From contig WLHG01000007.1 in assembly GCA_009702845.1 (NCBI GenBank), forward strand, positions 1 to 16,191: DNA of 16,191 nucleotides. The letters are read 5' to 3'. Each line of letters opens with the position of its first letter. Positions within the stretch are counted from its first letter, which is position 1. The notes under the pieces are model-generated. The model had not been told where the DNA came from. It ran no database searches and saw only the letters and a list, made by a program, of their open reading frames with translations. Shown here piece after piece: positions 937 to 13,748 of this stretch. Made by a program: the position numbers and the translations under genes. This DNA comes from Actinomycetota bacterium (GTDB taxonomy: Bacteria; Actinomycetota; Actinomycetes; Nanopelagicales; Nanopelagicaceae).

Positions 937-3330
937 TTATCCTTCAAAAGCCGACGTGATCTGCTCGTAAGAGAGCGAGTTTTTGGCGGTCGCAAGCATC
1001 TGCTTTTCGCGCTCAATGTTTCGCTCTATTTGAACTTTGGCCGATACGTACTGCTTAGGCCACGTAACATTCTTATATCCAATTTTTGCCGCCTCTAGTA
1101 GCGTCCAAGCTGGATTAACTAGGTGCATACGCGCTACGGCACATAGATCGGCGCGACCGGCGGCAATAATTGTATTTACATTATCGGCTTCGAAAATTGC
1201 ACCAACTGCAATTGTTGCGATTCCAGCTTCATTGCGAATTTGATCGGCAAATGGAGTTTGGAACATACGGCCGAACACGGGTTTTTCTTTCTTCGTAACC
1301 TGTCCTGACGAACAGTCAATCATGTCTGCGCCAGCGGCTTTAAAAGCCTTCGCTATTTCAACTGCATCTTGCGGAGTGATTCCACCCTCAGTCCAGTCAT
1401 GTGCAGAGATACGAACGCTTATCGGTTTGCCTTGTGGCCAAACCGCACGAACGGCGTTGAAGACTTCTAATGGATATTTCATTCGGTTTTCAAGGGAGCC
1501 ACCATATTCATCGGTTCTCGTATTTGTAATCGGTGAAATAAAGGATGAGAGCAGATAGCCATGAGCTGCGTGAAGCTCTAGCCAATCAAAGCCAGCTTCA
1601 TTAGCAGCTTTTGTGGAGTTAATAAAATCTTCCTTAACACCATCCATATCGGCACGCGTCATCTCATGCGATGTTTGGGAAACTCCCTCGAGGTACTGTT
1701 CTGGTGAGGCCGATATGAGGGACCATGAATCAGTTTCAACTGGCTTATCGATTCCCTCCCAAGCAAGCTTTGTGGCACCCTTTGCGCCAGCGTGACCAAT
1801 CTGAACAGCGATTTTTGCATCCGTATTATTATGAACGAAATCAACGATGCGCTTCCAACCAGCTGTGTGCTCGGGTTTATAGAGACCCGGGCATCCTGGA
1901 GTAATCCGTGCATCGGCACTAACACAAGTCATTTCAGTAAAGACCAGTGAAGCCCCACCCATGGCGCGGGCACCCAGATGAACAAGGTGGTAGTCGGCAG
2001 CTAAACCATCAACGGCTGAGTACTGGGCCATAGGAGATACGACCACACGGTTTTTTAGGACGACATCTCGAACTTTGAATGGAGTAAACATTGGGGGAAT
2101 GTTTTCAACGTTAGTTGGTAATTCAACTCCAGCATCGGCAAAAGCCTTGGCCGCAAACCATTTGTCATAGTTAGCAATGTAATCTGCATCGCGTACTCGC
2201 AGATTATCGTGGGAAATTCTCTGGCTACGAGTCAGTAGTGAGAAATTAAACTGTTCTGGAGGCATATTTGTGTAGCGACCAGTCTCTTCAAACCATTCCA
2301 TAGCATTGCGGGCAGCATTTTGAATCTTAAGCACTTCAATAGCACGGGTCTCTTGATAAGAGGCCAATATTTCATGCATTTCGCCAGTAGAACTATTAGC
2401 AAAAGAGTTAGCAAGTTCAATAGCATCTTCCATTGCGAGTTTTGTTCCCGACCCAATGGAAAAATGTGCGGTATGCGCAGCATCGCCCATCAAAACAACT
2501 GGAACTTCCTTGCCATCGATGGAGTTCCATTGAACCCAATTTTCACAGATAACTCGAGGGAATTTAATCCAGTTGGCAGAGCCACGCAAATGAGCTGCAT
2601 TGCTCATTAACTCGGCGCCATCTAAGTGCTTTGCAAATAGCTTTTCGCAGAAGGCGATGGACTCTTCCTGAGACATTTGATCTATTCCTGCACGCAACCA
2701 AACATCTTCCGGAGTCTCAACAATAAATGTGGATGTATCACCATCAAATTGATAGATATGGGCTTGAAACCAACCAAATTCAGTATTCTCGAAAATAAAT
2801 GTGAAATCTTTAAATAATTTCTTAGTTCCAAGCCAAACAAAGCGGCACTTGCGTGTATCGATATCGGGTTTGAATGTACTCTCGTATCGAGTACGGATTG
2901 CACTGTTTAAGCCATCGGCGGCAATAACCAAATCTGCACCATATTCGCGCGCGGCTTCCTGGTCATCTTTTATATCGGCTTCAAAAACTAACTTAACACC
3001 AAGGCTTTCTGCCCGCTCCTGAAGAATATTAAGAAGTCGCTTTCTTCCAATTCCGCAGAAGCCGTGGCCACCTGAAATGATGCTGGTGTTATTAATTCGA
3101 ACATCAATGTCATCCCAGTGATTAAAGGATTGAAGAATTGTGCGAGCCGTGGGTTCATCTGCACGTACGAAGTTACTCAACGTCTGATCAGAAAATACGA
3201 CGCCCCATCCAAAAGTGTCATAAGGGCGATTGCGCTCCAGAATAGTGATTTCATGGCTGGGATCGAGTTTCTTCATAAGAATCCCAAAGTAAAGTCCCGC
3301 AGCACCACCACCGATGGAAAGAATCTTCAT
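937..3330 (-). CDS. Anthraniloyl-CoA monooxygenase/reductase-type flavoenzyme (or salicylyl-CoA 5-hydroxylase type)
   Basis: This 797-residue fusion joins two flavoprotein domains. The N-terminal class A FAD monooxygenase half (about 1-400) has a dinucleotide fold SIGGGAAGLY at 5-14, a DG motif (AADGLNS) near 139 and the GDAAHTAHFSIGSG motif near 282. The C-terminal Old Yellow Enzyme-like half (about 412-760) has SPMAQYS, QIGHAGAKG and the HAAHGYL motif with His587 and His590. This order and length match 2-aminobenzoyl-CoA monooxygenase/reductase of Azoarcus-type aerobic anthranilate metabolism. That enzyme hydroxylates anthraniloyl-CoA and then reduces the ring to 2-amino-5-oxocyclohex-1-enecarboxyl-CoA using NADH and O2. 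Database names for the family also include salicylyl-CoA 5-hydroxylase. ATG at 3330 is preferred because AGAGGGG lies 6 bases upstream; a TTG six bases earlier abuts that site. It is divergent from the SDR gene and alone on its strand here. Domain identity is firm; the substrate rests on family resemblance and neighbours. Confidence 0.88.
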   Translation of the reverse strand: MKILSIGGGAAGLYFGILMKKLDPSHEITILERNRPYDTFGWGVVFSDQTLSNFVRADEPTARTILQSFNHWDDIDVRINNTSIISGGHGFCGIGRKRLLNILQERAESLGVKLVFEADIKDDQEAAREYGADLVIAADGLNSAIRTRYESTFKPDIDTRKCRFVWLGTKKLFKDFTFIFENTEFGWFQAHIYQFDGDTSTFIVETPEDVWLRAGIDQMSQEESIAFCEKLFAKHLDGAELMSNAAHLRGSANWIKFPRVICENWVQWNSIDGKEVPVVLMGDAAHTAHFSIGSGTKLAMEDAIELANSFANSSTGEMHEILASYQETRAIEVLKIQNAARNAMEWFEETGRYTNMPPEQFNFSLLTRSQRISHDNLRVRDADYIANYDKWFAAKAFADAGVELPTNVENIPPMFTPFKVRDVVLKNRVVVSPMAQYSAVDGLAADYHLVHLGARAMGGASLVFTEMTCVSADARITPGCPGLYKPEHTAGWKRIVDFVHNNTDAKIAVQIGHAGAKGATKLAWEGIDKPVETDSWSLISASPEQYLEGVSQTSHEMTRADMDGVKEDFINSTKAANEAGFDWLELHAAHGYLLSSFISPITNTRTDEYGGSLENRMKYPLEVFNAVRAVWPQGKPISVRISAHDWTEGGITPQDAVEIAKAFKAAGADMIDCSSGQVTKKEKPVFGRMFQTPFADQIRNEAGIATIAVGAIFEADNVNTIIAAGRADLCAVARMHLVNPAWTLLEAAKIGYKNVTWPKQYVSAKVQIERNIEREKQMLATAKNSLSYEQITSAFEG

Positions 3331-3336
3331 TAACAA

Positions 3337-3343
3337 CCCCTCT
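3337..3343 (-). promoter_or_regulatory. Ribosome binding site deciding the monooxygenase start
   Basis: On the minus strand AGAGGGG is followed by six bases (TTGTTA) and then ATG at 3330. The TTG inside that spacer touches the purine run directly, so it is too close to serve as start. This supports the 797-residue form. Confidence 0.6.
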
Positions 3344-3371
3344 AAATATTCTCTATTGGCATGTCGATTTT

Positions 3372-3385
3372 TTGACTACCGTCAA
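3372..3385. promoter_or_regulatory. Candidate operator: dyad TTGAC-N4-GTCAA in the divergent region
   Basis: A perfect inverted repeat (arms of 5, spacer TACC) lies between the divergent monooxygenase and SDR genes. Both arms also resemble a -35 hexamer, TTGACT reading right and TTGACG reading left. I found no well-spaced -10 for either direction, so promoter calls are withheld. The position suits a regulator controlling both directions; no regulator gene is in the window. Confidence 0.4.
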
Positions 3386-3407
3386 GGACGCAACACGAAC
3401 CTTGGGG

Positions 3408-3419
3408 TACGCTAGCGTA
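3408..3419. promoter_or_regulatory. Candidate operator: perfect 12-base palindrome TACGCTAGCGTA
   Basis: TACGCT followed directly by its reverse complement AGCGTA, with no spacer, sits 41 bases upstream of the SDR start and 22 bases from the TTGAC/GTCAA dyad. Uninterrupted palindromes of this size are typical of dimeric repressor sites such as those of TetR or GntR proteins. This is a shape argument only; no second copy was found in the window. Confidence 0.4.
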
Positions 3420-3460
3420 AAGAAGGCCACCTGGCGAGAGCAGCAACGGGAGAAAATCTA

Positions 3461-4237
3461 ATGACGAAGAATCGATTTACCGGCAAGGTTCTTGTAATCA
3501 CTGGTGGTGCTGGTGGATTGGGGGCTGCTATTGCTCTGGAGGCAGGGCTGCAAGGTGGCGCCATTGCGATCTTAGATACAAATAAGGCCGCTGTCGATTT
3601 ACTCGTCGCCAATCTCCGCTCACAAGGAATTACCGCTGATGGTCGTGTCGTTGATGTGCGAGATGGCAATGCAGTTACTCAAGTAATTGGTGAGCTTGCC
3701 GATTCTTTATCAGGAATAGATATTTTAATCTCAGCAGCTGGAGGCTCGTTAGGAACTCCGCGAGATCTTGAAGATATTACAGATGAAGATCTTGATTTGG
3801 TATTAGATGTAAATGTTAAGGGGACGTATTACTGTGCACGCGCATCCATCCCACATATGAAGAAGAGAGGCGGTGGCGCAATTGTCACCTTCTCATCCAT
3901 TGGAGGGCGAAGCGCGAGTCCGGTAACGGGAGTTCCATACGCAGCTGCAAAAGCTGCCATTCTCGGACTTACTCGACGATTAGCAAAAGAAGTCGGCTTA
4001 GATAATATTCGAGTGAATGCAGTTGCCCCAGGACTTTTCCTCACGGATCGCTTAACGGGAATGTTCGAAAAATTGAGCTCGGCAGAGCGCGATGAAGTAC
4101 TCAGCGGCATCCCGCTTGGACGAATGCCCGAGATTCGTGAGTGCGTCGACCCAGTTCTCTTTTTAGCAAGCAATGAATCCTCATACATCACAGGTGCAGT
4201 CCTGGATGTAAATGGGGGACGGCTCATGCCTAATTAG
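3461..4237 (+). CDS. SDR-family NAD(P)-dependent dehydrogenase (first of two)
   Basis: A 258-residue classical short-chain dehydrogenase. The cofactor glycine motif TGGAGGLG is at 14-21. Asp39 at the end of strand 2 (AILDTN) suggests NAD(H) preference. The active site has Asn118, Ser145/146, Tyr160 and Lys164 (YAAAK), and the C-terminus is the usual VNGG. The normally NNAG segment reads SAAG at 91-94, a mild deviation. Start ATG is supported by GGGAG eight bases upstream. It resembles BadH- and FabG-like enzymes that interconvert hydroxy and keto groups, including on alicyclic CoA esters. Placed divergently from the ring monooxygenase/reductase, it may reduce or oxidise the 5-oxo or a later hydroxyl group (inference). 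A 161-base gap separates it from the downstream VOC-ABC genes, so it may be transcribed separately or read through. Confidence 0.85.
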   Translation: MTKNRFTGKVLVITGGAGGLGAAIALEAGLQGGAIAILDTNKAAVDLLVANLRSQGITADGRVVDVRDGNAVTQVIGELADSLSGIDILISAAGGSLGTPRDLEDITDEDLDLVLDVNVKGTYYCARASIPHMKKRGGGAIVTFSSIGGRSASPVTGVPYAAAKAAILGLTRRLAKEVGLDNIRVNAVAPGLFLTDRLTGMFEKLSSAERDEVLSGIPLGRMPEIRECVDPVLFLASNESSYITGAVLDVNGGRLMPN

Positions 4238-4240
4238 GGG

Positions 4241-4346
4241 ATTATCACGTTTCGTAATGAGAGGTTCCACCGAGAGAAACTCTTGCGAAATAAAGCGAAA
4301 TTGATATGGCAGATGATTGACGAACGCCACAAAGGCACGTGATAAT
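4241..4346 (+). promoter_or_regulatory. Candidate structured leader RNA closed by a perfect 10-bp stem
   Basis: ATTATCACGT at 4241-4250 is exactly complementary to ACGTGATAAT at 4337-4346, enclosing 86 bases. GGG at 4238-4240 can add three more pairs to CCC at 4349-4351 across a two-base bulge. Inside, AGAGGTTC (4260-4267) pairs with GAAACTCT (4276-4283) with one mismatch and an eight-base loop. TTCG (4251-4254) can pair with CGAA (4286-4289) beneath it, and a weaker TGGC/GCCA stem (4307-4310 with 4326-4329) follows. The layout resembles a riboswitch aptamer or attenuator in front of the VOC-ABC operon. I do not recognise a known class. A DNA-level role (paired binding sites) is also possible. 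Confidence 0.4.
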
Positions 4347-4362
4347 AACCCATCGCAACGTC

Positions 4363-4392
4363 CTCCCTTTTTATGGGAATTTTGAATGGGAG
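4363..4392 (+). promoter_or_regulatory. Possible Shine-Dalgarno-sequestering switch before the VOC gene
   Basis: The ribosome site GGGAG (4388-4392) is six bases before ATG 4399. CTCCC (4363-4367) is its exact complement. The overlapping TCCC (4364-4367) can instead pair with GGGA (4375-4378), which would leave the ribosome site free. Two mutually exclusive short hairpins directly after a closed multi-stem element look like an expression platform. The stems are short, so this is tentative. Confidence 0.3.
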
Positions 4393-4398
4393 AGATTA

Positions 4399-4908
4399 AT
4401 GTCATTTGCAACTAGGAATCTTCCTGGTCTTGAAGGTATGGATCATGTTGGAATTACAGTGCCAAGCCTTGATGATGCTGTTGCGTTTTACTGCACACTA
4501 CTTGGCGCCACAGAGATCTTTCGTTTAGGACCATTTGACGCGCGTGATTTTGATGCAGTCGATGGCAAGGATTGGGCTCTTGCGCATGTAAATGTTGCCG
4601 ATGGGCGCTTTACATTAGCGATGCTTGAATATGCCAACGGTAGTCGGTTAGAACTTTTCCAATATGACCGACCAACAGAGCGCCCAAGTGCTCCTCCGCG
4701 CAATAGTGATTTAGGTGGACATCACATCGCATTCAAAGTTTCAGATTTGGATGCCGTGCTTGCACTTGCTGATTCTTTTTCACTGAAATTCTTGGCTGGA
4801 CCGATAGAGATAAATGAGGGACCCGCTGCGGGGCAGAGAATTATTTATGTTTTGGATCCTTGGGGCAATCAACTTGAACTCGTGGAGTATGAAAGCAAGC
4901 GCTCATAA
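4399..4908 (+). CDS. VOC-superfamily (glyoxalase/bleomycin-resistance fold) protein, function unknown
   Basis: A 169-residue two-module vicinal-oxygen-chelate protein. Module 1 opens with MDHVGITVPSLDDAV and module 2 with GGHHIAFKVSDLDAV, and the protein ends DPWGNQLELVEYE. The four expected metal positions (His in DHVG, Glu in RLELFQ, His in GGHH, Glu in QLELVE) are all present, so a metal enzyme is likely. Start ATG 4399 has GGGAG six bases upstream; a GTG at 4339 in the same frame lies inside a putative RNA stem and lacks a ribosome site. The VOC fold covers glyoxalase I, epimerases, extradiol dioxygenases and lyases, and I cannot choose between them. Methylmalonyl-CoA epimerase was considered because of the mutase downstream, but the DPWGN ending is not typical of it. 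It is followed two bases later by the importer ATPase, so it is co-transcribed with transport. Confidence 0.75.
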   Translation: MSFATRNLPGLEGMDHVGITVPSLDDAVAFYCTLLGATEIFRLGPFDARDFDAVDGKDWALAHVNVADGRFTLAMLEYANGSRLELFQYDRPTERPSAPPRNSDLGGHHIAFKVSDLDAVLALADSFSLKFLAGPIEINEGPAAGQRIIYVLDPWGNQLELVEYESKRS

Positions 4909-4910
4909 CC

Positions 4911-6398
4911 ATGACAACTCGTGTTTTAATGGAAGGTATCAGTAAGCGCTTTGATGCAGTCCATGCTCTTACTGGTGTCAACCTAACTCTGCATCCGGGC
5001 GAAGTTCACACAATTGCCGGTGAAAATGGATCTGGTAAGTCAACGCTTTTAAAAATATTGGCAGGAGTCATTAAGCCTGATGCGGGTTCAATTGCCATTG
5101 ATGGAACGTCAGTGGAGTTCCCAGATATTAGATCGGCAATCGGCCATGGCGTCACAATGGTGAGTCAAGAGTTAAGCCTCGTACCTCACTTAGGGGTTGC
5201 AGAGAATGTCTTCCTTGGACACAATCAAACACGTAATGCTTTTGGAATTGATTGGAAAGATACCGATCGGCGAGCAATTGAAATCCTGAAACGACTAAAT
5301 CTTTCAGTTAACCCTCGAGCCGAGGTCTCTTCACTGCCTCAGCACGAACAACAACTTGTTGAAATTGCGCGTGCCCTTGCATCGCAAACCAAAGTACTTC
5401 TTTTGGACGAGCCGACTTCATCATTAGCTCCAACAGAGGTTGAGGCGTTATTTAATGTGGTTCGCCAACTTCGCGATGATGGCGTCGCCATTGTCATGAT
5501 TTCACACCGGATGTCTGAGATGCTCGCCATTAGTGATCGCTTTACGGTTTTGCGCGATAGTAAGTTCATAGATACAAGTTCGCGAAATGGCGTAGATGAA
5601 AACTGGCTCATCGACCGGATGGTGCTCAATAGGCCAAAGTCGGCCACCAAGAGAGTCAAAAGCGGTGAGCCCCAAAGAGTCGTAATGGAAGTGAAGTCCC
5701 TATCTGATTTTGCTGGCTCCTTCGAGAACATTTCATTTAATATCCATGAAGGTGAAATCGTTGGCTTAGCTGGACTAGCCGGTGCGGGCCGGACCGAGCT
5801 GGTAGAGACAATTGTCGGGGCGTACACACGACGCTCTGGAGAGGTTTTTATCAATGGAAAAAAGATCGGGCATAACACCCGTTCAACGATGAACTCAGGT
5901 ATTGCATTAGTCCCCGATGATCGACGACTTAAGTCAACGATTCATGAAATGTCGGTTCGAGATAATCTTTTGCTTGCTGTACACGGCAGGCCAGCTAAGA
6001 ATAGGTCACGTAAAAAGGAAGAGAAGATAGTCAACAGTTGGGTTGAGAAATTTAGTATTAAAGTTAAGAATCTCGATGCACCCATCAGTTCGCTATCTGG
6101 CGGCAATCAACAGAAGGTAGTTATTGCGCGCTGCTTAGTCTCAAAACCCAAAGTACTCATTCTTGATGAGGCCACACGTGGTATCGACTTAGGGGCAAAG
6201 GCCGAGATTTATGAGATCCTTCGAGCTCTTGCCCGTGAGGGGCTTGCAATTTTAGTTGTCTCATCAGAGATAACAGAGATATTTGAGATTTCAGATCGAG
6301 TACTTGTAATGCACGCCGGCGAACTAACCGCCGATTTAGATAGAAGCACGATCAAAGAGTCAGATGTTGTATCGGCTGCGACAGGAGTTCTCGTATGA
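4911..6398 (+). CDS. Ribose-type ABC importer, duplicated ATP-binding subunit (RbsA/MglA family)
   Basis: A 495-residue protein with two nucleotide-binding domains in tandem, the normal architecture and length of carbohydrate-uptake-type 2 ATPases. The first domain has Walker A GENGSGKST at 37-45, Walker B VLLLDEPTSSL at 162-172 and a switch His199. Its signature is the degenerate LPQHEQQLVEIARAL at 142-156. The second has the family's degenerate Walker A GLAGAGRTEL at 288-297, a canonical LSGGNQQKV signature at 395-403 and Walker B VLILDEATRG at 415-424. It energises import at the inner face of the membrane. It starts two bases after the VOC stop with no strong ribosome site, suggesting translational coupling, and its TGA overlaps the permease ATG (ATGA). 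Transport of an aromatic or other non-sugar ligand is inferred from context only. Confidence 0.93.
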   Translation: MTTRVLMEGISKRFDAVHALTGVNLTLHPGEVHTIAGENGSGKSTLLKILAGVIKPDAGSIAIDGTSVEFPDIRSAIGHGVTMVSQELSLVPHLGVAENVFLGHNQTRNAFGIDWKDTDRRAIEILKRLNLSVNPRAEVSSLPQHEQQLVEIARALASQTKVLLLDEPTSSLAPTEVEALFNVVRQLRDDGVAIVMISHRMSEMLAISDRFTVLRDSKFIDTSSRNGVDENWLIDRMVLNRPKSATKRVKSGEPQRVVMEVKSLSDFAGSFENISFNIHEGEIVGLAGLAGAGRTELVETIVGAYTRRSGEVFINGKKIGHNTRSTMNSGIALVPDDRRLKSTIHEMSVRDNLLLAVHGRPAKNRSRKKEEKIVNSWVEKFSIKVKNLDAPISSLSGGNQQKVVIARCLVSKPKVLILDEATRGIDLGAKAEIYEILRALAREGLAILVVSSEITEIFEISDRVLVMHAGELTADLDRSTIKESDVVSAATGVLV

Positions 6399-7393
6399 AA
6401 CGCGTAATGAAACTGCCCACGGTGAGCTCTTTGCCAGCTTGGTTTGGCATTCTGGTTCTTGAAATTATGTTACTGATCGCAATGGCAATTATGCAGCCAG
6501 TGTTTTTTTCTGGCTCTAACTTAAGCAACATAGTTCGCTCCTCGGCCGTGCCGATTATTCTGGGAATCGGCATGACATATACGATTTTGACGGCCGGAAT
6601 CGATTTAAGCGTCGGAAGCGTATTAGCCTTTACGGGCATTGTTCTCTCTGGATTAATTACACATATGCCACGAGCAGCGGCAGTAGTTCTGACAATCGCT
6701 TTAGTAACACTTATTGTTGGTGGAATTAATGGTCTCCTCATTGGAAAATTAGGATTAAACAGCTTTGTTATAACCCTTGGCACACTAGGTATCTTTAGAG
6801 GAATCTCCTACCTAGTGACAAATGGAACGACCCGCACGATTGATACCGGACCACTTATTAATACTTTAGGTGATGGAAATGTTGGACCTATTCCGGGGCC
6901 ATTTCTGGTCGTAATTTTCGTATCGATAATTTCAATTTACGTCTTGAAGTCAACATACTTTGGCCGCGATGTTTATGCAGTGGGTGGCAATGAGTTTGCC
7001 GCTAAGTTGGCTGGAATATTTACCAGCCGAGTGAAGATGACGGTTTACTTTATTTCAGCACTTCTTGCCGCCTTAGCTGGCGTTATGCAGGTTGGTCGTC
7101 TACAAGCGGCCTCTCCAACTATCGGAGTCGGAATCGAACTCACAGTTGTCGCTGGAGTTCTTCTCGGCGGAACGCGCCTTAGCGGTGGCGTAGGAAGTAT
7201 CACAGGCACAGTAATTGGCCTGCTCTTCCTACAAACCGTATCTAATTCCCTGACCATTCAGGGGGTCTCCTCATACTGGCAACAAGTTGTTACAGGTGTC
7301 TTATTGGGAGCAGCAGTTCTTTTCGATCGAATACGAATTGTGTATTCCGGTCGAAGCAAACGAGGAGAGGAAAGTAATGTCACTAAAGAGTAA
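6395..7393 (+). CDS. Ribose-type ABC importer permease (RbsC family)
   Basis: A 332-residue hydrophobic protein with about eight to ten membrane-spanning segments. It carries conserved features of the BPD_transp_2 family: GIDLSVGSVLAFTGIVLSG in the first third, AVGGNEFAAKLAGI in the middle cytoplasmic loop, and the GGTRLSGGVGSITGTVIG motif near the C-terminus that contacts the ATPase. The ATG shares four bases with the ATPase stop, and AGGAG sits seven bases upstream within the ATPase gene. A second in-frame ATG at 6407 is possible but less well supported. The protein presumably forms a homodimeric channel. The 3' end overlaps the binding-protein start by 17 bases, so all three transporter genes are coupled. 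Confidence 0.92.
   Translation: MKRVMKLPTVSSLPAWFGILVLEIMLLIAMAIMQPVFFSGSNLSNIVRSSAVPIILGIGMTYTILTAGIDLSVGSVLAFTGIVLSGLITHMPRAAAVVLTIALVTLIVGGINGLLIGKLGLNSFVITLGTLGIFRGISYLVTNGTTRTIDTGPLINTLGDGNVGPIPGPFLVVIFVSIISIYVLKSTYFGRDVYAVGGNEFAAKLAGIFTSRVKMTVYFISALLAALAGVMQVGRLQAASPTIGVGIELTVVAGVLLGGTRLSGGVGSITGTVIGLLFLQTVSNSLTIQGVSSYWQQVVTGVLLGAAVLFDRIRIVYSGRSKRGEESNVTKE
7362..7370 (+). promoter_or_regulatory. Strong ribosome binding site of the solute-binding protein
   Basis: GAGGAGAGG lies six bases before ATG 7377, inside the permease coding sequence. It is the most purine-rich site of the ABC operon, matching the usual need for excess binding protein over permease. It also rules out the 30-codon N-terminal extension that the open frame allows. 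Confidence 0.7.
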
Positions 7394-8378
7394 AAAGGCA
7401 ATATTTATTCCATTATTAACAGTTGCGGCACTGCTTGCATCAGGCACAACCGCTTCGCATGCAGCTGCATCAAAGGGGCTAGTTGGATTCAGTTACCCAA
7501 TTGAAGCCAACACCTATTTGAAGGCTATAGGACTAGCTGCTGAATCAACTCTGAAAAAAGCTGGATATACAATGTTGGCAATCGATGCTCAACTTGATGG
7601 TAATAAGCAGATTTCTGATGTAGAGACAATGATTACCAAAAAAGTAAAGGCGATGATTATCTATCCTCTTGACTCAAATGGCATGAAGCCAGTTCTTACT
7701 AAGGCAGCTGCTGCTGGTATCAAAGTTATTACTATGAACTACAGTGTTGGCGATTCAGTCAAGGCTCCACCAGCTCCATCACTTGCACAGGTTCAAGATG
7801 GTTTCCCACAGAGAAGTCTTGCAACTGCTCGTGTTGCTTGGCTCAAGAAGGTACTGCCAAAGGGTGGCAACATTCTCTATGTTGGCCTTGGTTTCCCTGT
7901 AGCGGCCCTTGAAATGCATGCCAATCTCTTCAAGGAAGAAGTAGACCAGGATACTGCTTTTGAATATCTAGGTCGTGTAGACAATATGTCAGATGACTCA
8001 GAAGGCGGCCGTAAGGCAGTCGATGAGGCTCTTATTAAGTTTCCAAACATCGATGCGATCGTTGCTTACAACGATCCAACGGCACTTGGTGCTTATTCGG
8101 CAGTAAAAGCAGCAGGCAAAGCAGGCAAGATCAAGGTTATTGGTCTTCAAATGCAGCCTGAGGCAGTTAACTCAATCAAGGCTGGCCAAATCAACGGATC
8201 ATGGGACTTCAATCCTGTTGCCTCCGGTGTTTCATTGGCTTCATTGACTATTTCAATCCTTAAGGGTGAAGCTAAGTCAAAGTGGAGCAAGACAATTCAA
8301 ACTCCTGCAGTGTTCTTCGATAAGACGACTATTGCAAAGTTTGTACCTTGGGACACTCGCGTAAAGGGTCTTAAGTAA
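7377..8378 (+). CDS. Periplasmic/secreted substrate-binding protein of the ribose-type ABC importer, ligand unknown
   Basis: A 333-residue protein with a Sec signal peptide: basic start (MSLKSKK), hydrophobic core (AIFIPLLTVAALLASG) and an SHA-type cleavage site near residue 29. There is no lipobox cysteine. The mature part is a type 1 periplasmic-binding fold like RbsB. Against E. coli RbsB as I recall it, Asn13 and Asn190 (in NDPTALGA) are kept. The sugar-binding residues Asp89-Arg90 become Asn-Tyr (VITMNYS), Arg141 is lost, Asp215 becomes Gln (IGLQMQ) and Gln235 becomes Phe. Ribose binding is therefore unlikely. A bulkier or less polar ligand would fit the change and the catabolic neighbourhood, but this is inference. 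The codon choice looks more uniform than in neighbouring genes, as expected for high expression. The gene ends 14 bases before a strong terminator. Confidence 0.9.
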   Translation: MSLKSKKAIFIPLLTVAALLASGTTASHAAASKGLVGFSYPIEANTYLKAIGLAAESTLKKAGYTMLAIDAQLDGNKQISDVETMITKKVKAMIIYPLDSNGMKPVLTKAAAAGIKVITMNYSVGDSVKAPPAPSLAQVQDGFPQRSLATARVAWLKKVLPKGGNILYVGLGFPVAALEMHANLFKEEVDQDTAFEYLGRVDNMSDDSEGGRKAVDEALIKFPNIDAIVAYNDPTALGAYSAVKAAGKAGKIKVIGLQMQPEAVNSIKAGQINGSWDFNPVASGVSLASLTISILKGEAKSKWSKTIQTPAVFFDKTTIAKFVPWDTRVKGLK

Positions 8379-8392
8379 TAATTAAGTAATAG

Positions 8393-8436
8393 AAAAGCCG
8401 GTGTAGAGATTTCTCTACACCGGCTTTTTCTTTTTT
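8393..8436. terminator. Bidirectional rho-independent terminator
   Basis: AAAAGCCGGTGTAGAGA (8393-8409) pairs perfectly with TCTCTACACCGGCTTTT (8412-8428), a 17-base stem around TT (about 16 pairs with a realistic four-base loop). A T-rich tail runs to 8436 on the plus strand. On the minus strand the stem ends in TTTT followed by CTATTACTT. It lies between the convergent binding-protein and crotonase genes and can stop transcripts from both sides. Confidence 0.95.
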
Positions 8437-8449
8437 AATTTTATTGTAT

Positions 8450-9247
8450 TTATCTAAACGGGTTAAAGTCCGGAAGTCTCTTTTCAGTGAAAGCCTTGCC
8501 ACCCTCTTGTGACTCTTCGGTCTTTGTGTATAGATCTAAGACATCAAAGGAAAGTGCTGCAATTCCAGCTATGTGATCTGAATCGGCATTGAATGAATGC
8601 TTGAGTGCTTTTAGTGCAGTTGGTGATAGCGCGCAAATTTTCAGCGCCCATTCCATTGATGCCTTCATCAGTTGATCCGGTTCTACAACTTTATTTACCA
8701 ATCCCCAACGCTCGGCAGTTACCGCGTCATACTGCTCGCATAAAAACCAGATTTCACGGGCGCGTTTTTCTCCGACAACTCGCGCTAAATATGCACTTCC
8801 AAAACCGGCATCGAAAGAGCCAACGCGTGGCCCCACTTGACCGAACTTGGCGTTAGTTGATGCGATTGAAAGATCTGCAAGGACATGCAAAACATGCCCT
8901 CCTCCGATTGCAAAACCATTAACTGCAGCGATCACAGGTTTTGGAACTGCCCTTATCATTTTATGTAAGGCCTCTATTTCAAACATTCCCGTTTCTGTTT
9001 CACCATAGCCGCCGCTTTCAGCACGCTCTTTTTGGTCTCCACCTGTACAAAATGCCTTCTCGCCTGCGCCAGTAAGGATTACCGCACCTACTGCCGTATC
9101 AACCCAGGCGCGTTTGAAAGAGCTAAGAAGCTCATCTACGGTACGTCCGCGAAGGGCGTTGTAACGGTCGGGGCGATTAATGGTGATTATGGCAACGCCT
9201 TGATCTATCACATACGTTGTATCGGTCAACTCATTAATAGAAATCAT
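8450..9247 (-). CDS. Crotonase-family ring hydrolase/cyclase: BadI-like 2-ketocyclohexanecarboxyl-CoA hydrolase or MenB-like
   Basis: A 265-residue enoyl-CoA hydratase-fold enzyme belonging to the MenB/BadI branch. Signature segments are NRPDRYNALRG (24-34), AFCTGGDQ (65-72), IGGGHVLHVLADL (114-126), QVGPRVGSFDAGFG (137-150), ARVVGEKRAREIWFLC (155-170) and ESQEGGKAFTEKRLPDF near the end. Tyr240 matches the C-terminal catalytic tyrosine of this group. BadI hydrolytically opens 2-oxocyclohexanecarboxyl-CoA to pimeloyl-CoA; MenB performs the reverse-type ring closure in menaquinone synthesis. The absence of other men genes and the presence of an alicyclic-producing monooxygenase/reductase favour ring opening, but motifs alone do not separate the two. 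Ordinary enoyl-CoA hydratase is unlikely because GGDQ and SFDAG replace the usual segments. It lies 27 bases downstream of the thiolase on the same strand, with AGGG seven bases before ATG, and ends at a shared terminator. Confidence 0.82.
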   Translation of the reverse strand: MISINELTDTTYVIDQGVAIITINRPDRYNALRGRTVDELLSSFKRAWVDTAVGAVILTGAGEKAFCTGGDQKERAESGGYGETETGMFEIEALHKMIRAVPKPVIAAVNGFAIGGGHVLHVLADLSIASTNAKFGQVGPRVGSFDAGFGSAYLARVVGEKRAREIWFLCEQYDAVTAERWGLVNKVVEPDQLMKASMEWALKICALSPTALKALKHSFNADSDHIAGIAALSFDVLDLYTKTEESQEGGKAFTEKRLPDFNPFR

Positions 9248-9274
9248 TGCATAACCCTATCCTTGAACCGTTGA

Positions 9275-10456
9275 TTAAGCCGAAACCTCGATGGCCACTG
9301 CTATCCCTAAGCCAACACCAATACAGGCGGCAACAATTCCGATGCCCCCGCCTCTTCGCTTTAACTCTCGTGCACAGTCGATAATCACTCGGGATGCAGA
9401 TGCACCAACTGGATGCCCAATCGCAATGGCCCCTCCATTAACATTGACGCGACTGCGATCAATCTCGGGTATTTCATGTAAAACAGTTAAGACCATTGAA
9501 GCAAAAGCCTCATTAATCTCCCATACGGCAATATCGCCAACGGTGAGACCAAGCTTTGCAAGAAGTTTATGGATGGCACTCACCGGAGCCAAAGAGAATT
9601 GATCGGGATCGGTTGCAGTAACTTGCGAGGCCAAGATTTTGCCAATCGGTTCAACCTCAAAGAGATCTAAATTCTTGCGATTGGTAATTATTGCTGCGAC
9701 AGAGCCGTCATTTAATGGAGATGAGTTACCTGCCGTGCCGGAACCACCAGGTGAAAATACCGATGGCAGCGCTCCTAAAGTTTGTATTGAAGAATCTGGG
9801 CGAATTGATTCATCACGGTTGACAGTACCGAACGGTAAAACCCAATCTGTGTGCAAACCCTTGTTCCAGGCCTCATTGGCTAAAACGTGTGATCGCACCG
9901 CCCACTCATCCTGTTCAATTCGTGATATTCCAAGGCGCTCGGCAACAACTTCTGAACATCTTCCTAGACTTTGTGTCCAATTAGATTCCATGAGGGGATT
10001 TGTAAGTCTCCAGCCGACCGTGCTCTGGTGAAAAGTAGGATCAGTTGGCTCGTCCCTACTTGTTCGCTCAACAATCCAAGGAGCGCGACTCATGCTTTCA
10101 ACACCACCGGAGATAATCAGCTGCGCATCTCCAGATTTAACCGCTCTAGCACCTTGAATAAATGACTCTGCACCAGAACCACATAATCTATTAATAGTTA
10201 GACCAGGCACGCTCTTGGGCAGACCCGCTAGAAGCGAGCCCATTCGAGCAACATTTCGATTGTCTTCACCGGCTCCATTTGAGTCGCCGATAATTACATC
10301 ATCTATCTGGGCTGGATTAATCTGTGGATTTCGCGCCATCAGATTTCGCAAGGTAAAACCGAGGAGATCATCGGGGCGCGTCGTTGAGAGGCCACCAAAA
10401 TACTTTCCAAAAGGAGTCCGAACTGCACTTACGATGAACGCCTCAGGAGTTGTCAT
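9275..10456 (-). CDS. Thiolase-family acetyl-CoA acyltransferase
   Basis: A 393-residue thiolase of usual length. The acylated cysteine is Cys92 in NRLCGSG. NEAF (315-318) and the GHP motif with His348 (AIAIGHPVGASASR) are present, and the second cysteine Cys378 lies in AACIGVGLGIA. That last segment is usually CIGGGQGIA, so two positions are altered near the active site. The enzyme should cleave a 3-oxoacyl-CoA with CoA to acetyl-CoA or succinyl-CoA plus a shortened acyl-CoA; PcaF/PaaJ-type 3-oxoadipyl-CoA thiolases are similar. ATG 10456 is a standard N-terminus (AFIVSAVRTPFGK) but has no clear ribosome site. AATAAT seven bases upstream would fit a -10 of a leaderless transcript. It is the first gene of a two-gene unit with the crotonase and is divergent from the second SDR. 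Confidence 0.93.
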   Translation of the reverse strand: MTTPEAFIVSAVRTPFGKYFGGLSTTRPDDLLGFTLRNLMARNPQINPAQIDDVIIGDSNGAGEDNRNVARMGSLLAGLPKSVPGLTINRLCGSGAESFIQGARAVKSGDAQLIISGGVESMSRAPWIVERTSRDEPTDPTFHQSTVGWRLTNPLMESNWTQSLGRCSEVVAERLGISRIEQDEWAVRSHVLANEAWNKGLHTDWVLPFGTVNRDESIRPDSSIQTLGALPSVFSPGGSGTAGNSSPLNDGSVAAIITNRKNLDLFEVEPIGKILASQVTATDPDQFSLAPVSAIHKLLAKLGLTVGDIAVWEINEAFASMVLTVLHEIPEIDRSRVNVNGGAIAIGHPVGASASRVIIDCARELKRRGGGIGIVAACIGVGLGIAVAIEVSA

Positions 10457-10550
10457 ATGGCGTATTATTGCCTATCGTTAGAAAAACGCACCATGTATTG
10501 TGTCCTTATTACTCTAGGAAATAGACCATAGATATGGAGCCACCACTTTT
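10457..10550. promoter_or_regulatory. Divergent promoter region between thiolase and second SDR operons
   Basis: These 94 bases must hold promoters for both directions. AATAAT reading left (10469-10464) ends seven bases before the thiolase ATG. Reading right I see only weak candidates, such as TTGTGT at 10498. GGAG at 10536-10539 is the SDR ribosome site, 11 bases from ATG. The dyads at 3372 and 3408 do not recur here. Confidence 0.4.
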
Positions 10551-11294
10551 ATGGCAATGAGGGTTCTTGTAGTTGGGGCTGGCCGTGGAATAGGGCGAGC
10601 AATCTCAATCCAGTTGCTGGATTTAGGCCATGACGTTGCCTTATGTTCTAGAACCCAATCCGATCTCGATGTTCTCATCGATGGGCGAATCAATAAAACT
10701 CTAGCAATTGTCGCTGATGTGACTTCCCCTGGCGCGGCCGACAAGGTTATTTCGACTGTAGTCAATGCATGGGGTGGAATCGATGTACTCATTCTCAATG
10801 CAGGCGATGGTGCCAGCGCACCAATAGACAAGACTTCGGATCAGATGTGGGATCACATGATCGATCTGAATCTGAGCGCGCCATTTAGATTTATGCGAGC
10901 TGCTGTGTCACATATGAAGCTGGCTCAAAGCGGCCAAATAATTGTGATCGCTAGCAAAGCGGGATTAGTCGGTGAGCCAAATGTTGCGGCGTATACGGCG
11001 GCAAAACATGGAGTTGTAGGTCTAGTTCGAGCGGCATCAAGTGAACTTTCACGTTATGGAATTACTGTCAATGCGCTCTGTCCAAGCTATGTAGATACAC
11101 CAATGACGGAACGAACATTAGCGGCAGCAGCAGCTCGAACTGGTAAAGCGATAGATGAAGTTAAGATGGCGCTCGAATCAAAACTCTCGGGAGGACGCTT
11201 ACTAACGGCAGATGAAGTTGCAGAAGCCGCTATTTTATTCATTGGAGATTCTACAAAGACTGGAATAACTCAACTGCTCGAAGGAGGGCATTAG
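10551..11294 (+). CDS. SDR-family oxidoreductase (second of two)
   Basis: A 247-residue classical short-chain dehydrogenase. It has the cofactor motif GAGRGIG at 9-15, NAG at 83-85, Ser135, and Tyr148 with Lys152 (YTAAK). Ser32-Arg34 at the end of strand 2 (LCSRTQ) lacks the acidic residue of strict NAD enzymes and suggests NADP(H). The C-terminus reads QLLEGGH where VDGG is usual. It likely acts on a hydroxy/keto group of a CoA ester, as FabG- and BadH-type enzymes do (inference). Start ATG 10551 is chosen over the ATG at 10557 for its distance to GGAG. It heads a five-gene run with gaps of 0-2 bases or one-base overlaps; the Rid gene follows after one base and uses a ribosome site inside this gene's end. 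Confidence 0.87.
   Translation: MAMRVLVVGAGRGIGRAISIQLLDLGHDVALCSRTQSDLDVLIDGRINKTLAIVADVTSPGAADKVISTVVNAWGGIDVLILNAGDGASAPIDKTSDQMWDHMIDLNLSAPFRFMRAAVSHMKLAQSGQIIVIASKAGLVGEPNVAAYTAAKHGVVGLVRAASSELSRYGITVNALCPSYVDTPMTERTLAAAAARTGKAIDEVKMALESKLSGGRLLTADEVAEAAILFIGDSTKTGITQLLEGGH
11281..11288 (+). promoter_or_regulatory. Near-consensus ribosome binding site of the Rid gene
   Basis: AAGGAGGG is seven bases before ATG 11296 and lies within the last codons of the SDR gene. It is the best Shine-Dalgarno match I see in the window. Confidence 0.7.
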
Positions 11295-11295
11295 T

Positions 11296-11688
11296 ATGAC
11301 AATCAAGAAAATAAACCCAGAAACACTTGCCCCTCCAATCGGTTTTTCTCACGCAGTTATTGCTGAAGGAAAAAATATATTTCTTGCAGGACAGACTGCT
11401 TTGAATAAAGAGGGCGTCATCGTCGGCGACACTATTGTCAGCCAATTTGAAAAGGCGCTGATTAACCTAGTTACAGCGTTGCGCGAAGCGGGCGGCACCC
11501 CTGAAGATCTCGTAAAAATAACTATATTTTCGGTGGATCCAGTTGACTACCGTGCGCACTCCCGAGAGATTGGGAAAATCTGGCAATCACTGTTGGGTAA
11601 GAATTATCCTGCAATGACCCTCGTAGGTGTTACTAGGCTGTGGGATGACGCCGCTCTTGTTGAAATTGAAGGAATAGCTTGCATCTAA
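11296..11688 (+). CDS. RidA/YjgF-family protein, non-archetypal (catalytic Arg missing)
   Basis: A 130-residue single-domain protein of the Rid (YjgF/YER057c/UK114) family, with IFLAGQTALNKEG near 28-40, the REAGGTPEDLVKITIF segment near 63-78 and the terminal VEIEGIACI. Archetypal RidA hydrolyses enamine/imine intermediates and needs Arg105 in a PAR(S/T) motif. Here the motif reads YPAMT, so that arginine is a methionine, while the downstream glutamate (VEIEG) is kept. It therefore belongs to another Rid subfamily whose activities are mostly unassigned. Members occur in catabolic clusters for nitrogenous aromatics, such as 2-aminomuconate deaminase. An amino-group-removing role on a 2-aminocyclohexenyl-CoA intermediate would fit the neighbours but is inference and is weakened by the missing Arg. 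The stop codon overlaps the next start (TAATG). Confidence 0.88.
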   Translation: MTIKKINPETLAPPIGFSHAVIAEGKNIFLAGQTALNKEGVIVGDTIVSQFEKALINLVTALREAGGTPEDLVKITIFSVDPVDYRAHSREIGKIWQSLLGKNYPAMTLVGVTRLWDDAALVEIEGIACI

Positions 11689-13748
11689 TGAATGATCTAT
11701 CCCTTTTATGGAGAGCCACATCGATTGCGATTATCGGCGCTACTGAGCGTGAAAATGCGATGGGCAGAGCTCCGATTGAATATTTGCAAAGATTTGGATT
11801 CTCTGGGGATATTTACCCCATCAATCCCAAGAGTTCCACGATCCTAGGTTTACCAAGTTATGCGAAGATTTCTGACGTACAAAGCGAAATTGATTTAGCG
11901 TTAATCATGCTCCCCGCATCGTCAGTTGAGACTGCATTGATTGAGTGCGCAGGCGCTGGTGTAAAAGTTGTAATTGTCATGTCGTCGGGATTTGGTGAAT
12001 CCGATGAGGCAGGAAGCTTGGCGCAAAATAGATTAGTAAAGATTGCAAAGGATGCTGGTATGCGCTTAGTTGGACCCAACTGTATTGGGTCGGTCGGCGG
12101 TGCTAATAAATTAGTAGCATCATTCTCGCCAGTGTTTTCATCTTCAACGACGACAGTGGAAGCCGGAAACATAGCCCTTGTTAGCCAATCAGGTGCCCTT
12201 GGGTATGGGATGTATTCACTCGGAATTGAACAAGGAGTTCCTCTTGGCGTCGTGGTGACCACGGGCAATGAAGCAGATGTAACCAACCTTGAAGTTGCAC
12301 AAGCGTTGGCCGATGATGCTTCGGTTTCTGCGATTCTTCTTTATGCAGAATCACTCACAGATGTTGAAGCCCTCCGCACGATATCTGCGAAGAAGCCCAC
12401 TGCAATTCTAAAAGTTGGCCGATCGGCCCAAGGCGCAATAGCCGCGGCCTCTCACACTGGCGCACTTGCAACTGAAGATCGAATCATCGATGCCGCGATA
12501 AAGGCCACAGGAGCCGTCCGTGTTGATGATGTCGAGCAGCTCTTGGATGCGGGATTAATCTTTGCCTCTGGGGCTAAATCCCTTGGAAAACGAGTGGCGA
12601 TTATTACTACTTCTGGTGGTAGTGGAATTCTTGCTACCGATGCGTTAGAAAAAAATGGCTTAGAACTCGCAGAATTAGCACCAGAGACACTCGCAGCCCT
12701 TGCAGGGATTGTGCCCTCCTATGGAAATGCTACTAATCCCGTGGATGTAACTGCCGCCGTCATGTCCACGCCTGATCTATTTGAAAAGTGTCTGGATGTA
12801 TTAGCTAAAGACAGTGGTGTTGACTCCATAGTTGCCTGCTTTGCCGTACTTGTCGGGGCAGATGTCGAACGTATCGCCTCTGCTCTGGGAGGCGTCAGAG
12901 CGGTTAGAAACCTTCCCATCGCAGTTGCAAGGACCGGCTCAAAGAATTTGGCACCTCTGGCAAGCGGAATTTTCAAGAGTCTGAACATTCCAGTATTCCC
13001 GACTCCCGATCGCGCCGTTGCCGCATTACGAATTCTCGAAGAGAGCGGACGCACTATAAAGCGAGTACTTAAAAAAGATTTTGTTGGCAACTTTCCTACG
13101 CCCTCTGAAACGGCTACAGAAGTTGAAATGAAAGAGCTCTGGAAGCAAGTTGGAGTTCCAGTTCCGCTTTCAGTAGTTGTGAAGAATGAAAGCGAAGTTC
13201 TATCTGCTGTTGAATTTGTTGGTGGCCGCGCAGTATTCAAAGCAGTCATTCCTGGATTACTTCACAAGAGCGAGGCCGGCGGAGTCGCCTTAGATATTAA
13301 TGCAGCAGATGCTGGTGTAACTTATTCGCGGCTGTCGAAAATTTCTGGAGAAAGAAATGATGTCCTTGTTGAAACTTTTGTTCCTAAGGGTGTTGAAACT
13401 CTAGTCGGTGTGACATCTTCATCCCTGGGTAAAGTCTTAACCATTGGCGTAGGAGGAATTCTCACTGAAATAATCTCCGATGTGTCGATCCGACTACTAC
13501 CAATTAATGAAGAAGTACTGCGAGAGATGATATCTGAGACTCGATTAGCTCAACTTTTTGCAGGGGCGCGTGGATCAGCACCTGCCGATGTGGATGCCTT
13601 TATTTCTGCAGTCTTAAAAATTGCAGAGGTTGCACATACATTTCCTGAGCTCAGTGAGTTAGATATCAACCCACTAACAGTGTTACCACAAGGCGCATGG
13701 GTGCTAGACAGTGCATATTCAATACCTACCGAAGGGAAACACCACTAA
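11688..13748 (+). CDS. ADP-forming acyl-CoA ligase (acetate--CoA ligase family)
   Basis: A 686-residue fused alpha-beta ADP-forming acyl-CoA synthetase. An N-terminal CoA-binding domain (SIAIIGATER at 12-21, GPNCIGSVG near 129-137) and succinyl-CoA-ligase-like domains (NIALVSQSGALGYG at 161-174) come first. His256 in ASHTGALA is the expected phospho-histidine. A C-terminal ATP-grasp domain follows (about 475-686, HKSEAGGVAL at 526-535, ELDINPL near 657-663). It makes an acyl-CoA from acid, CoA and ATP, giving ADP and phosphate, and is often reversible. The acid is unknown; in this cluster an aromatic or dicarboxylic acid is plausible. ATG 11688 overlaps the Rid stop; an in-frame TTG at 11679 sits too close to AAGGAA. 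The next gene's ATG follows the stop with no spacing. Confidence 0.88.
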   Translation: MNDLSLLWRATSIAIIGATERENAMGRAPIEYLQRFGFSGDIYPINPKSSTILGLPSYAKISDVQSEIDLALIMLPASSVETALIECAGAGVKVVIVMSSGFGESDEAGSLAQNRLVKIAKDAGMRLVGPNCIGSVGGANKLVASFSPVFSSSTTTVEAGNIALVSQSGALGYGMYSLGIEQGVPLGVVVTTGNEADVTNLEVAQALADDASVSAILLYAESLTDVEALRTISAKKPTAILKVGRSAQGAIAAASHTGALATEDRIIDAAIKATGAVRVDDVEQLLDAGLIFASGAKSLGKRVAIITTSGGSGILATDALEKNGLELAELAPETLAALAGIVPSYGNATNPVDVTAAVMSTPDLFEKCLDVLAKDSGVDSIVACFAVLVGADVERIASALGGVRAVRNLPIAVARTGSKNLAPLASGIFKSLNIPVFPTPDRAVAALRILEESGRTIKRVLKKDFVGNFPTPSETATEVEMKELWKQVGVPVPLSVVVKNESEVLSAVEFVGGRAVFKAVIPGLLHKSEAGGVALDINAADAGVTYSRLSKISGERNDVLVETFVPKGVETLVGVTSSSLGKVLTIGVGGILTEIISDVSIRLLPINEEVLREMISETRLAQLFAGARGSAPADVDAFISAVLKIAEVAHTFPELSELDINPLTVLPQGAWVLDSAYSIPTEGKHH

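Follow-up and report, generated by a model that had tools for sequence, protein, structure and literature searches.

We take the genes of the 2-aminobenzoyl-CoA pathway of Azoarcus (Aromatoleum) evansii to be those of the abm clusters, and for this organism opening of the ring between C2 and C3, followed by beta-oxidation, was reportedly proposed by Schuehle in 2001. According to an excerpt of a review (PMC6221969), the role of a 2-aminobenzoyl-CoA cluster in the anthranilate breakdown of an indole degrader has been proved by proteomics and genetics. A passage on anthranilate-grown Arthrobacter Rue61a reports anthraniloyl-CoA and a second CoA ester, the acid of which has the formula C7H8O4 and which was tentatively read as cyclohexanedione-carboxyl-CoA (PMC3534580). 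Tryptophan breakdown through an enzyme of the anthraniloyl-CoA monooxygenase/reductase type (ACMR) was omitted from a 2022 curation of catabolic pathways for lack of knowledge, as stated in a section of that work (PMC9007349). The DNA analysed here, 16,191 nucleotides in length and called the window (contig WLHG01000007.1, forward strand), is a contig of the freshwater actinobacterial group acI (Nanopelagicales). It carries an ACMR gene (937..3336, minus strand) in one locus with genes for a BadI-like crotonase, the proposed C1-C2 ring-opening hydrolase (8450..9247, minus strand), a thiolase (9275..10456, minus strand) and the large subunit of a B12-dependent acyl-CoA mutase (15308..16191, plus strand). 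Bacteria of the acI group are among the most abundant in fresh water.

To compare lower-pathway genes, the best 80 ACMR loci matched (16 from acI and 64 from elsewhere, mainly oxalobacterial), 20 further actinobacterial loci and, for query searches, a set of 36 acI loci were used. The last set includes short contig pieces, several from some genomes, and was compared by query sequences, with family models run on some of the open reading frames (ORFs) only. All dehydrogenase queries came from a single oxalobacterial ACMR locus, L016. Acyl-CoA dehydrogenase 1 was found in 56 of the 64 non-acI loci and 14 of the 20 other actinobacterial loci, acyl-CoA dehydrogenase 2 in 56 and 13, respectively, and neither query matched in any of the 36 acI loci. 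The L016 3-hydroxyacyl-CoA dehydrogenase query matched in 7/64, 0/20 and 0/36 loci. Crotonases of 29-36% identity were present in 60 of the non-acI loci and absent from four, and a PRK08258-type crotonase was present in 16 of the other actinobacterial loci and absent from four; in acI loci the PRK08258 query gave matches of 27-31% only, at the positions of the window-type crotonase. MeaB and the B12-binding subunit were found in four of the 36 acI loci and in none of the 64 or the 20. In the other ACMR loci a PRK08258-type crotonase and acyl-CoA dehydrogenases predominate, so acI has a distinct lower pathway, an alternative to what usually follows ACMR that is conserved and bound to this lineage.

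The crotonase was followed through 251 genomes of the order, which are mostly fragmented and akin, so that p values overstate independence. Orthologues were defined by at least 75% identity and E <= 1e-99, the next class of matches reaching no more than 52%. ACMR scored over its cut-off in 22 genomes and occurred as fragments in seven more, and the crotonase orthologue was present in 31. Both genes were found in 27 genomes, ACMR only in two, the crotonase only in four and neither in 218 (p 9e-30, uncorrected for kinship). The prediction of a sequence-only reading made earlier, that crotonase and monooxygenase co-occur in related genomes, was thus borne out within the order (27 of 29 ACMR genomes). 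Contig ends lie close by in the crotonase-only genomes: the edge in G090 keeps the first part of ACMR, the contigs of G141 and G175 end in the short-chain dehydrogenase/reductase gene SDR1, and that of G074 is 5.4 kb long. The ACMR-only genomes G104 and G125, both incomplete, hold a fragment of ACMR at the end of a contig, and no crotonase orthologue was found in the rest of their sequence. The link did not extend beyond the order. Elsewhere in the phylum, 33 genomes with ACMR-like genes (over the cut-off in 18; the 20 actinobacterial loci were taken from such genomes) all lacked the orthologue, and three had a relative at 50-53% identity.

Gene order showed the same association. Among the 16 acI loci, ACMR was adjoined by SDR1 in 15, by the crotonase in 12 and by the thiolase, SDR2, a Rid-family gene and an ADP-forming ligase in 11 each. 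In all four loci without the crotonase the contig ends on that side; three of the genomes concerned have the gene at one end of a different contig, and in the fourth, G007, it was not found. The grouping of genes around ACMR is not chance. The genes named in the sequence-only reading all proved to be intact ORFs at the coordinates given. That reading did not take into account several other members of the cluster: an indolepyruvate-type oxidoreductase, an isatin hydrolase, the acyl-CoA ligases and the mutase, which belongs to an unusual class and is the most telling part of the set; nor did it mention the VOC protein and the RbsA-type ABC transporter encoded between 4339 and 8378.

Families were assigned by NCBIfam and Pfam model scores against curated cut-offs. 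The window ACMR, a fusion of an FAD monooxygenase and an old-yellow-enzyme domain (PF01494 and PF00724), matched NF006101 over residues 3-783 with 1341.4 bits (cut-off 1078). It is 94% identical to copies in two actinobacterial metagenome-assembled genomes (MAGs; L001 and L002) and 78% identical to those of MAGs titled acI, Nanopelagicaceae or Nanopelagicales. Among the best 80 loci, copies of oxalobacterial and other proteobacterial origin were 66-73% identical to it, whereas the 18 over-cut-off copies elsewhere in the phylum reached 46-57%. These identities, taken without a tree, suggest lateral transfer of the window ACMR. In G051 (L152) and G120 (L153) the ACMR is of another lineage, 49% identical to that of the window, and these genomes nevertheless retain the crotonase (74-75% identical), SDR1 and the oxidoreductase. 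From its context, namely isatin hydrolase, a kynureninase-like gene and Rid, the predicted substrate of ACMR is anthraniloyl-CoA and not salicylyl-CoA.

The crotonase had been placed in the MenB/BadI branch, and model scores agreed with this: its top NCBIfam models were NF005637 (MenB, 337.1 bits, cut-off 380), TIGR01929 (MenB, 313.2 bits, cut-off 342.7) and TIGR03210 (BadI, 309.3 bits, cut-off 467.6). It stayed under all of these cut-offs; Cupriavidus badI scores 474.2 with TIGR03210. In a tree of 47 proteins, the 16 acI cluster proteins formed one branch (94/99), 14 MenB proteins another (100/100), and five named BadI proteins with three unnamed ones a third (96/94), the latter two without acI rows. 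By its place in the tree the crotonase is a third clade of the MenB/BadI branch, neither MenB nor BadI. Its score with TIGR03210 and its position outside the BadI clade ruled out BadI proper. A true MenB was encoded separately in all 16 ACMR-bearing acI genomes (405-417 bits with TIGR01929) beside a second, window-type gene at 310-335 bits in 15 of them; on these grounds and by its separate clade a second MenB was rejected, MenB being the gene of the men pathway that was looked for, in keeping with the sequence-only reading of the crotonase as BadI-like. The nearest relatives by identity were plasmid-borne (59-67%), followed by badI-named (up to 57%) and MenB-named proteins (up to 54%), so that identity leans toward the hydrolase side. 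The five nearest plasmid relatives, from Mycobacterium (two), Rhodococcus, Marinobacter and Azoarcus, lie amid varying sets of SDR, ligase and acyl-CoA dehydrogenase genes, with aliB in the neighbourhood of the Marinobacter gene; no ACMR was found within 10 kb of any of the five.

Ser161/Asp163, Gln154, Gly156 and Tyr97 (E. coli MenB numbering) were kept in all 16 acI crotonases; we assume for these residues, and for Tyr258, the roles they have in E. coli MenB. Ten residues before a PKPV motif, the acI proteins have Glu (16/16), MenB has Leu (14/14) and BadI Glu or Asp (5/5). Twelve other proteins had Glu (5), Asp (4) or Gly (1) at this site or were without the motif (2), and 119 of 120 crotonase homologues had Glu, the motif being missing in one; the site was counted by its distance from PKPV, as a gap in the alignment of the 120 homologues displaced it. 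Branch, residues and linkage to ACMR argue that the acI crotonase probably opens the ring in the manner of BadI. Such an opening is poorly described as anaerobic in style: badI genes belong to aliA/aliB clusters, and the hosts of the clusters examined we take to be aerobes.

The mutase of the cluster, here termed class B, differs from a second type, class A. The N-terminal part present in the window, which is cut by the window end, scored 337.1 bits with TIGR00641 (cut-off 303.8); full-length class B proteins scored 540-575 bits (549.8 for the copy at L164:5066-6559) and class A proteins 656-743. Full class B genes were found in 25 of the 251 genomes, 24 of them with the crotonase; with fragments included there were 29 genomes, 27 with the crotonase. 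Class A was found in 22 genomes. A full class B gene without detected class A was seen in 19 genomes, and both classes in nine; fragments were classed by best match, and their inclusion lowered the former count from 21 to 19. Genes for MeaB and a B12-binding subunit are present in the cluster. Tyr89 and Arg207 (methylmalonyl-CoA mutase (MCM) numbering) were kept in all 13 aligned class B rows (the window and 12 loci, two from G008), and the two class A proteins aligned kept these as well as Arg82 and Arg87; residue numbers and roles are presumed from MCM, in which we take Arg82 and Arg87 to contact CoA. Among solved structures class B matched 2-hydroxyisobutyryl-CoA mutase best (HCM, 443 bits; MCM, 348 bits), as against 509 and 503 bits for a class A protein. 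Class B was at most 49% identical to mutases matched in the 33 other genomes of the phylum.

The thiolase scored closest to the 3-oxoadipyl-CoA thiolase family (NF006551, 392.7 bits, cut-off 605), was over the cut-off of the general model TIGR01930 (389.3 bits, cut-off 240.55), and among solved structures was related to 7vtr, 1ulq and the beta-ketoadipyl-CoA thiolases 6pca-6pcd. It is proposed to be a 2-methyl-3-oxoadipyl-CoA thiolase.

Taken together, the acI locus may encode an aerobic CoA-thioester route from anthranilate-type compounds to central metabolism; with the steps as drawn below, this reading is tentative and falls a little short of an even chance. Judged by gene content, anthraniloyl-CoA would arise from anthranilate, for which fuller copies of the locus carry ligase, kynureninase-like and TDO-like genes, and a second feed would run from isatin hydrolase to isatinate and perhaps directly to anthraniloyl-CoA by the indolepyruvate-type oxidoreductase. 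After ACMR, hydrolysis of the enamine, with or without Rid, would give 2,5-dioxocyclohexanecarboxyl-CoA, and the crotonase would hydrolyse the C1-C2 bond to yield 4-oxopimelyl-CoA. The class B mutase would shift the thioester carbonyl, converting 4-oxopimelyl-CoA to 2-methyl-3-oxoadipyl-CoA much as succinyl-CoA is converted to methylmalonyl-CoA; of the readings compatible with the gene set this step is the boldest, and we put it forward with less than even confidence. The thiolase would release propionyl-CoA and succinyl-CoA, and propionyl-CoA would be removed by prpBCD or by a second, methylmalonyl-type mutase. In a variant with the same products, SDR1 would reduce the 5-oxo group first, the mutase would convert 4-hydroxypimelyl-CoA to 2-methyl-3-hydroxyadipyl-CoA, and SDR2 would reoxidise the latter before thiolysis. 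That the ring carbons are freed without acyl-CoA dehydrogenation, by a third-clade hydrolase, a B12 mutase acting on a new substrate (4-oxo- or 4-hydroxypimelyl-CoA) and thiolysis, is possible but somewhat doubtful. The sequence-only reading had proposed that a deaminated analogue of 2-oxocyclohexanecarboxyl-CoA is opened; this is still the best fit, and the CoA ester of a C7H8O4 acid is known from Arthrobacter, but the enzyme is not BadI proper.

The proposed route can do without acyl-CoA dehydrogenase, which agrees with the lack of matches in the acI loci, and since it would yield propionyl-CoA it predicts genes for the disposal of this product. Of the 33 cluster genomes, 31 carried PrpD (19) or a class A mutase (12), the exceptions being G141 and G229; of the 218 others, 88 did (p 1.7e-9). 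The count for cluster genomes had stood at 28 before mutase fragments were included. In seven genomes 8.5-9.5 kb separate PrpD from ACMR, and in G008 prpB, prpC and prpD all scored over their cut-offs. No genome among the 251 had both PrpD (found in 97) and the class A mutase (found in 22).

A number of observations speak against the proposed route. Its entire chemistry is read from genes. In the crotonase, Tyr258 is absent from the acI proteins (Thr in 11, Ile in three, Val in two) and present in 14/14 MenB and 5/5 BadI proteins, and the tree supports no one branching order among the acI clade, BadI and the remaining plasmid proteins, so that neither BadI nor MenB stands out as the closer relative of the clade. 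All 13 class B rows have a three-residue gap at Arg82 and Gly in place of Arg87, and because these presumed CoA-contacting arginines are missing, substrate binding by class B is in doubt. Class B was not matched in four crotonase genomes (G014, G074, G194 and G229) and occurred without the crotonase in G143 and G160. The thiolase is below the 3-oxoadipyl-CoA cut-offs, including that of the PcaF model TIGR02430 (388.0 bits against 597), and the window Rid has Met at the site of the RidA catalytic arginine, where four of five aligned solved relatives have the PAR motif. No role is forced on SDR1, SDR2 or the two ligases by the proposed steps. Kynureninase-like genes of more than 200 bits were as frequent in genomes with the cluster (13/17) as in those without it (13/17), none of them over the cut-off. 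The pattern of PrpD or class A was noticed after the tables had been seen; PrpD alone was weakly enriched (19/33 against 78/218, p 0.02), and in 12 of the 19 PrpD cluster genomes, including G001, a close relative of the window, it lies on another contig.

In a rival reading the ring is opened in BadI-like fashion and the mutase is an ordinary propionate/succinate enzyme sharing the operon, so that 4-oxo- or 4-hydroxypimelyl-CoA passes to housekeeping beta-oxidation. Retention of Tyr89 and Arg207 fits such a mutase, and the thiolase and SDRs match general beta-oxidation-type families. Class A, however, occurs alongside class B in G006, G009, G015, G016, G051, G120, G143, G167 and G227, the two CoA-site arginines are kept in the two class A proteins examined, and PrpD genomes need no MCM for propionyl-CoA. 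The full class B large subunit reached 460.9 bits with NF006944 against a cut-off of 876; this model spans both domains, and the subunit, having no fused B12 domain, can match it in part only. We consider this reading unlikely. Rather improbable is a route that places the crotonase, the thiolase, the SDRs and the mutase before ACMR, where they would shorten a side chain to give anthraniloyl-CoA, as the mutase IaaGH and the dehydrogenase IaaF do in anaerobic indoleacetate breakdown. The cluster does combine a B12 mutase with an auxin-type module of isatin hydrolase and indolepyruvate-type oxidoreductase, and IaaGH is named as a mutase of the anaerobic indoleacetate pathway in an extract of PMC8360864; but the crotonase belongs to the BadI/MenB branch, and acyl-CoA dehydrogenase was absent from the 36 acI loci by the two L016 queries, IaaCE-like genes not having been searched for. 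A pure iaa-type pathway was set aside, as its dehydrogenase was not found.

Beta-oxidation of the Azoarcus type after ACMR, with the crotonase as a hydratase and C2-C3 opening as first proposed for Azoarcus evansii, can draw on a published proposal, and beta-oxidation is restated in part of a review (PMC4539516). Its prospects are nevertheless poor for acI, where the acyl-CoA dehydrogenases and the PRK08258-type crotonase of other ACMR loci were not found. Of the NCBIfam models, one for MenB gave the crotonase its top single score, and databases list the protein as naphthoate synthase, as would suit a second MenB for menaquinone synthesis located here by chance; with a separate over-cut-off MenB in 16/16 genomes, a distinct clade and a crotonase that tracks ACMR, this is very improbable.

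The remaining genes were assigned as follows. SDR2 (10551..11294, plus strand; SDR family models) is the first gene of a run that continues with Rid (11296..11688; PF01042, 75 bits, cut-off 27.3), an ADP-forming acyl-CoA ligase (ACD, 11679..13748; PF13607, PF13549 and PF13380), an AMP-forming acyl-CoA ligase (ACS, 13749..15305; PF00501; NF004837, 407.3 bits, cut-off 476) and the mutase, all on the plus strand. The junctions measure +1, -10, 0 and +2 bases, and this tight packing makes Rid and the mutase look like parts of one operon. Crotonase and thiolase, 27 bases apart, diverge from it at 94 bp. SDR1 (3461..4237, plus strand; PF13561/PF00106) is divergent from ACMR with 124 bp between them.

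Rid proved not to be peculiar to this locus: the same kind of protein recurs across ACMR loci, with Met in place of the arginine of RidA, which we take to be Arg105 in the PAR motif. The best Rid match per ACMR-cluster locus had PAM, PTM or PSM in 93 of 93 cases (20 acI loci, some from one genome, 56 non-acI and 17 other actinobacterial loci). The P-A/T/S-M form was common to ACMR-linked proteins of three lineages (window 11296-11688, L016:15787-16194 and L137). Judged by this motif, the ACMR pathway has its own kind of Rid without the RidA catalytic residue; it may speed deamination of the beta-enamino thioester or have another role, and deamination is possibly spontaneous.

The solved structure nearest to ACD was 8wzu, an ADP-forming 4-hydroxybutyrate--CoA ligase. 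ACS differs from the ACMR-linked ligase of Oxalobacteraceae, to which its acI orthologues are 25-27% identical; a ligase 48-52% identical to the ACMR-side ligase of L016 lies further on in fuller acI copies. The window opens with the C-terminal part (DUF6537 end) of an indolepyruvate-oxidoreductase beta subunit (1..924, plus strand), scoring 318.4 bits with NF006179/PRK08312 for the cut gene (cut-off 348). In fuller copies the beta subunit reached 654.7 bits (L008:12394-13989) and the alpha subunit 279.3 (cut-off 650.9), and in relatives the alpha-subunit gene and an isatin hydrolase gene adjoin that of the beta subunit. The isatin hydrolase (L008:16409-17182, outside the window), which had been labelled a kynurenine formamidase-like cyclase until it was matched to solved structures, scored 285.6 bits to 5nmp and 261.6 to 4j0n. 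The oxidoreductase is perhaps an isatinate (2-aminophenylglyoxylate) oxidoreductase yielding anthraniloyl-CoA. Two CrtI/CrtO-like FAD oxidoreductases (L008:17227-18822 and 18885-20411) adjoin the isatin hydrolase. A TDO-like protein in 8/16 acI loci scored 131.8 bits (cut-off 390.7), an unsure assignment, and the kynureninase-like protein of fuller copies 234.7 bits (cut-off 246.4); being equally common in genomes without the cluster, the latter was discarded as weak evidence for it.

Between SDR1 and the crotonase lie a VOC-family gene (4339..4908, plus strand; PF13669), with a weak match to the methylmalonyl-CoA epimerase model TIGR03081 (33.7 bits, cut-off 114.95) and present in 4/16 acI loci, and an RbsA-type ABC transporter (4911..8378, plus strand). 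The transporter comprises an ATPase (4911-6398) and a permease (6395-7393), both named by eye, and a binding protein that weakly resembles RbsB/RhaS, its ORF being listed from a TTG at 7287 and read here from 7386 (7386-8378). This slot (4339-8378) is occupied by a TDO-like gene in L008 and L168 and by a transporter of the branched-chain-amino-acid type, judged by eye, in L156. The gap between transporter and crotonase holds a two-way terminator-like hairpin (8392..8429) with a near-perfect stem of 17 pairs on the plus and 16 on the minus strand. GC content along the contig was 43-50% per kilobase. L008 and L011, in records titled as a Bifidobacterium breve MAG, have acI-type loci, and the titles look wrong.

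In the open-licence literature, none of the matches listed dealt by title with bacterial catabolism via 4-oxopimelate or 2-methyl-3-oxoadipyl intermediates, and none linked a B12 mutase with anthranilate and ring cleavage. The acI gene set would fill an acknowledged gap in the post-ACMR steps by which a tryptophan breakdown product is degraded, and it is small and specific enough for enzyme-by-enzyme testing. If true, the proposed route would bring a new reaction class for B12 mutases and a new clade of ring-opening hydrolases, and would give acI bacteria a means to use tryptophan and indole-type compounds.

Among known systems, the iad auxin loci of Variovorax and Bradyrhizobium resemble the acI module in their indolepyruvate-type oxidoreductase subunits alpha and beta (iadA/iadB) and in an isatin route to anthranilate; according to an excerpt of PMC9613470, the oxidoreductase genes serve as markers of these loci and the route leads from isatin through isatinic acid to anthranilic acid. 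The acI module, compared without a search for iad oxygenase genes, differs in lying next to ACMR and the genes for ring opening. With MCM, HCM and IaaGH, the last likened without sequence comparison, the cluster shares a split B12 acyl-CoA mutase with MeaB, and with MCM the residues Tyr89 and Arg207, whereas class B departs from MCM at Arg82 and Arg87. EchA20 of steroid degradation, compared by description only, is likewise a member of the crotonase family that opens a ring hydrolytically under aerobic conditions, but its substrate and cluster differ; a passage in PMC5380842 places it with MenB among the M. tuberculosis EchAs, at 24% identity to BadI. BadI itself, the 2-ketocyclohexanecarboxyl-CoA hydrolase of badHI-aliBA clusters, shares with the acI crotonase the branch, an acidic residue at the site of a MenB leucine, QVGP, the Ser/Asp motif and a nearby SDR; the acI protein mostly has Thr for Tyr258, and its substrate would bear a 5-oxo or 5-hydroxy group. 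The Azoarcus evansii locus itself lay outside the sequence comparison; in the ACMR clusters of Oxalobacteraceae and other actinobacteria, as in acI, ACMR has a CoA ligase and a Rid-type protein for neighbours, with an SDR as well in many loci, but these clusters mostly hold a PRK08258-type crotonase and acyl-CoA dehydrogenases where acI holds a BadI-like crotonase, a PcaF-like thiolase and a B12 mutase.

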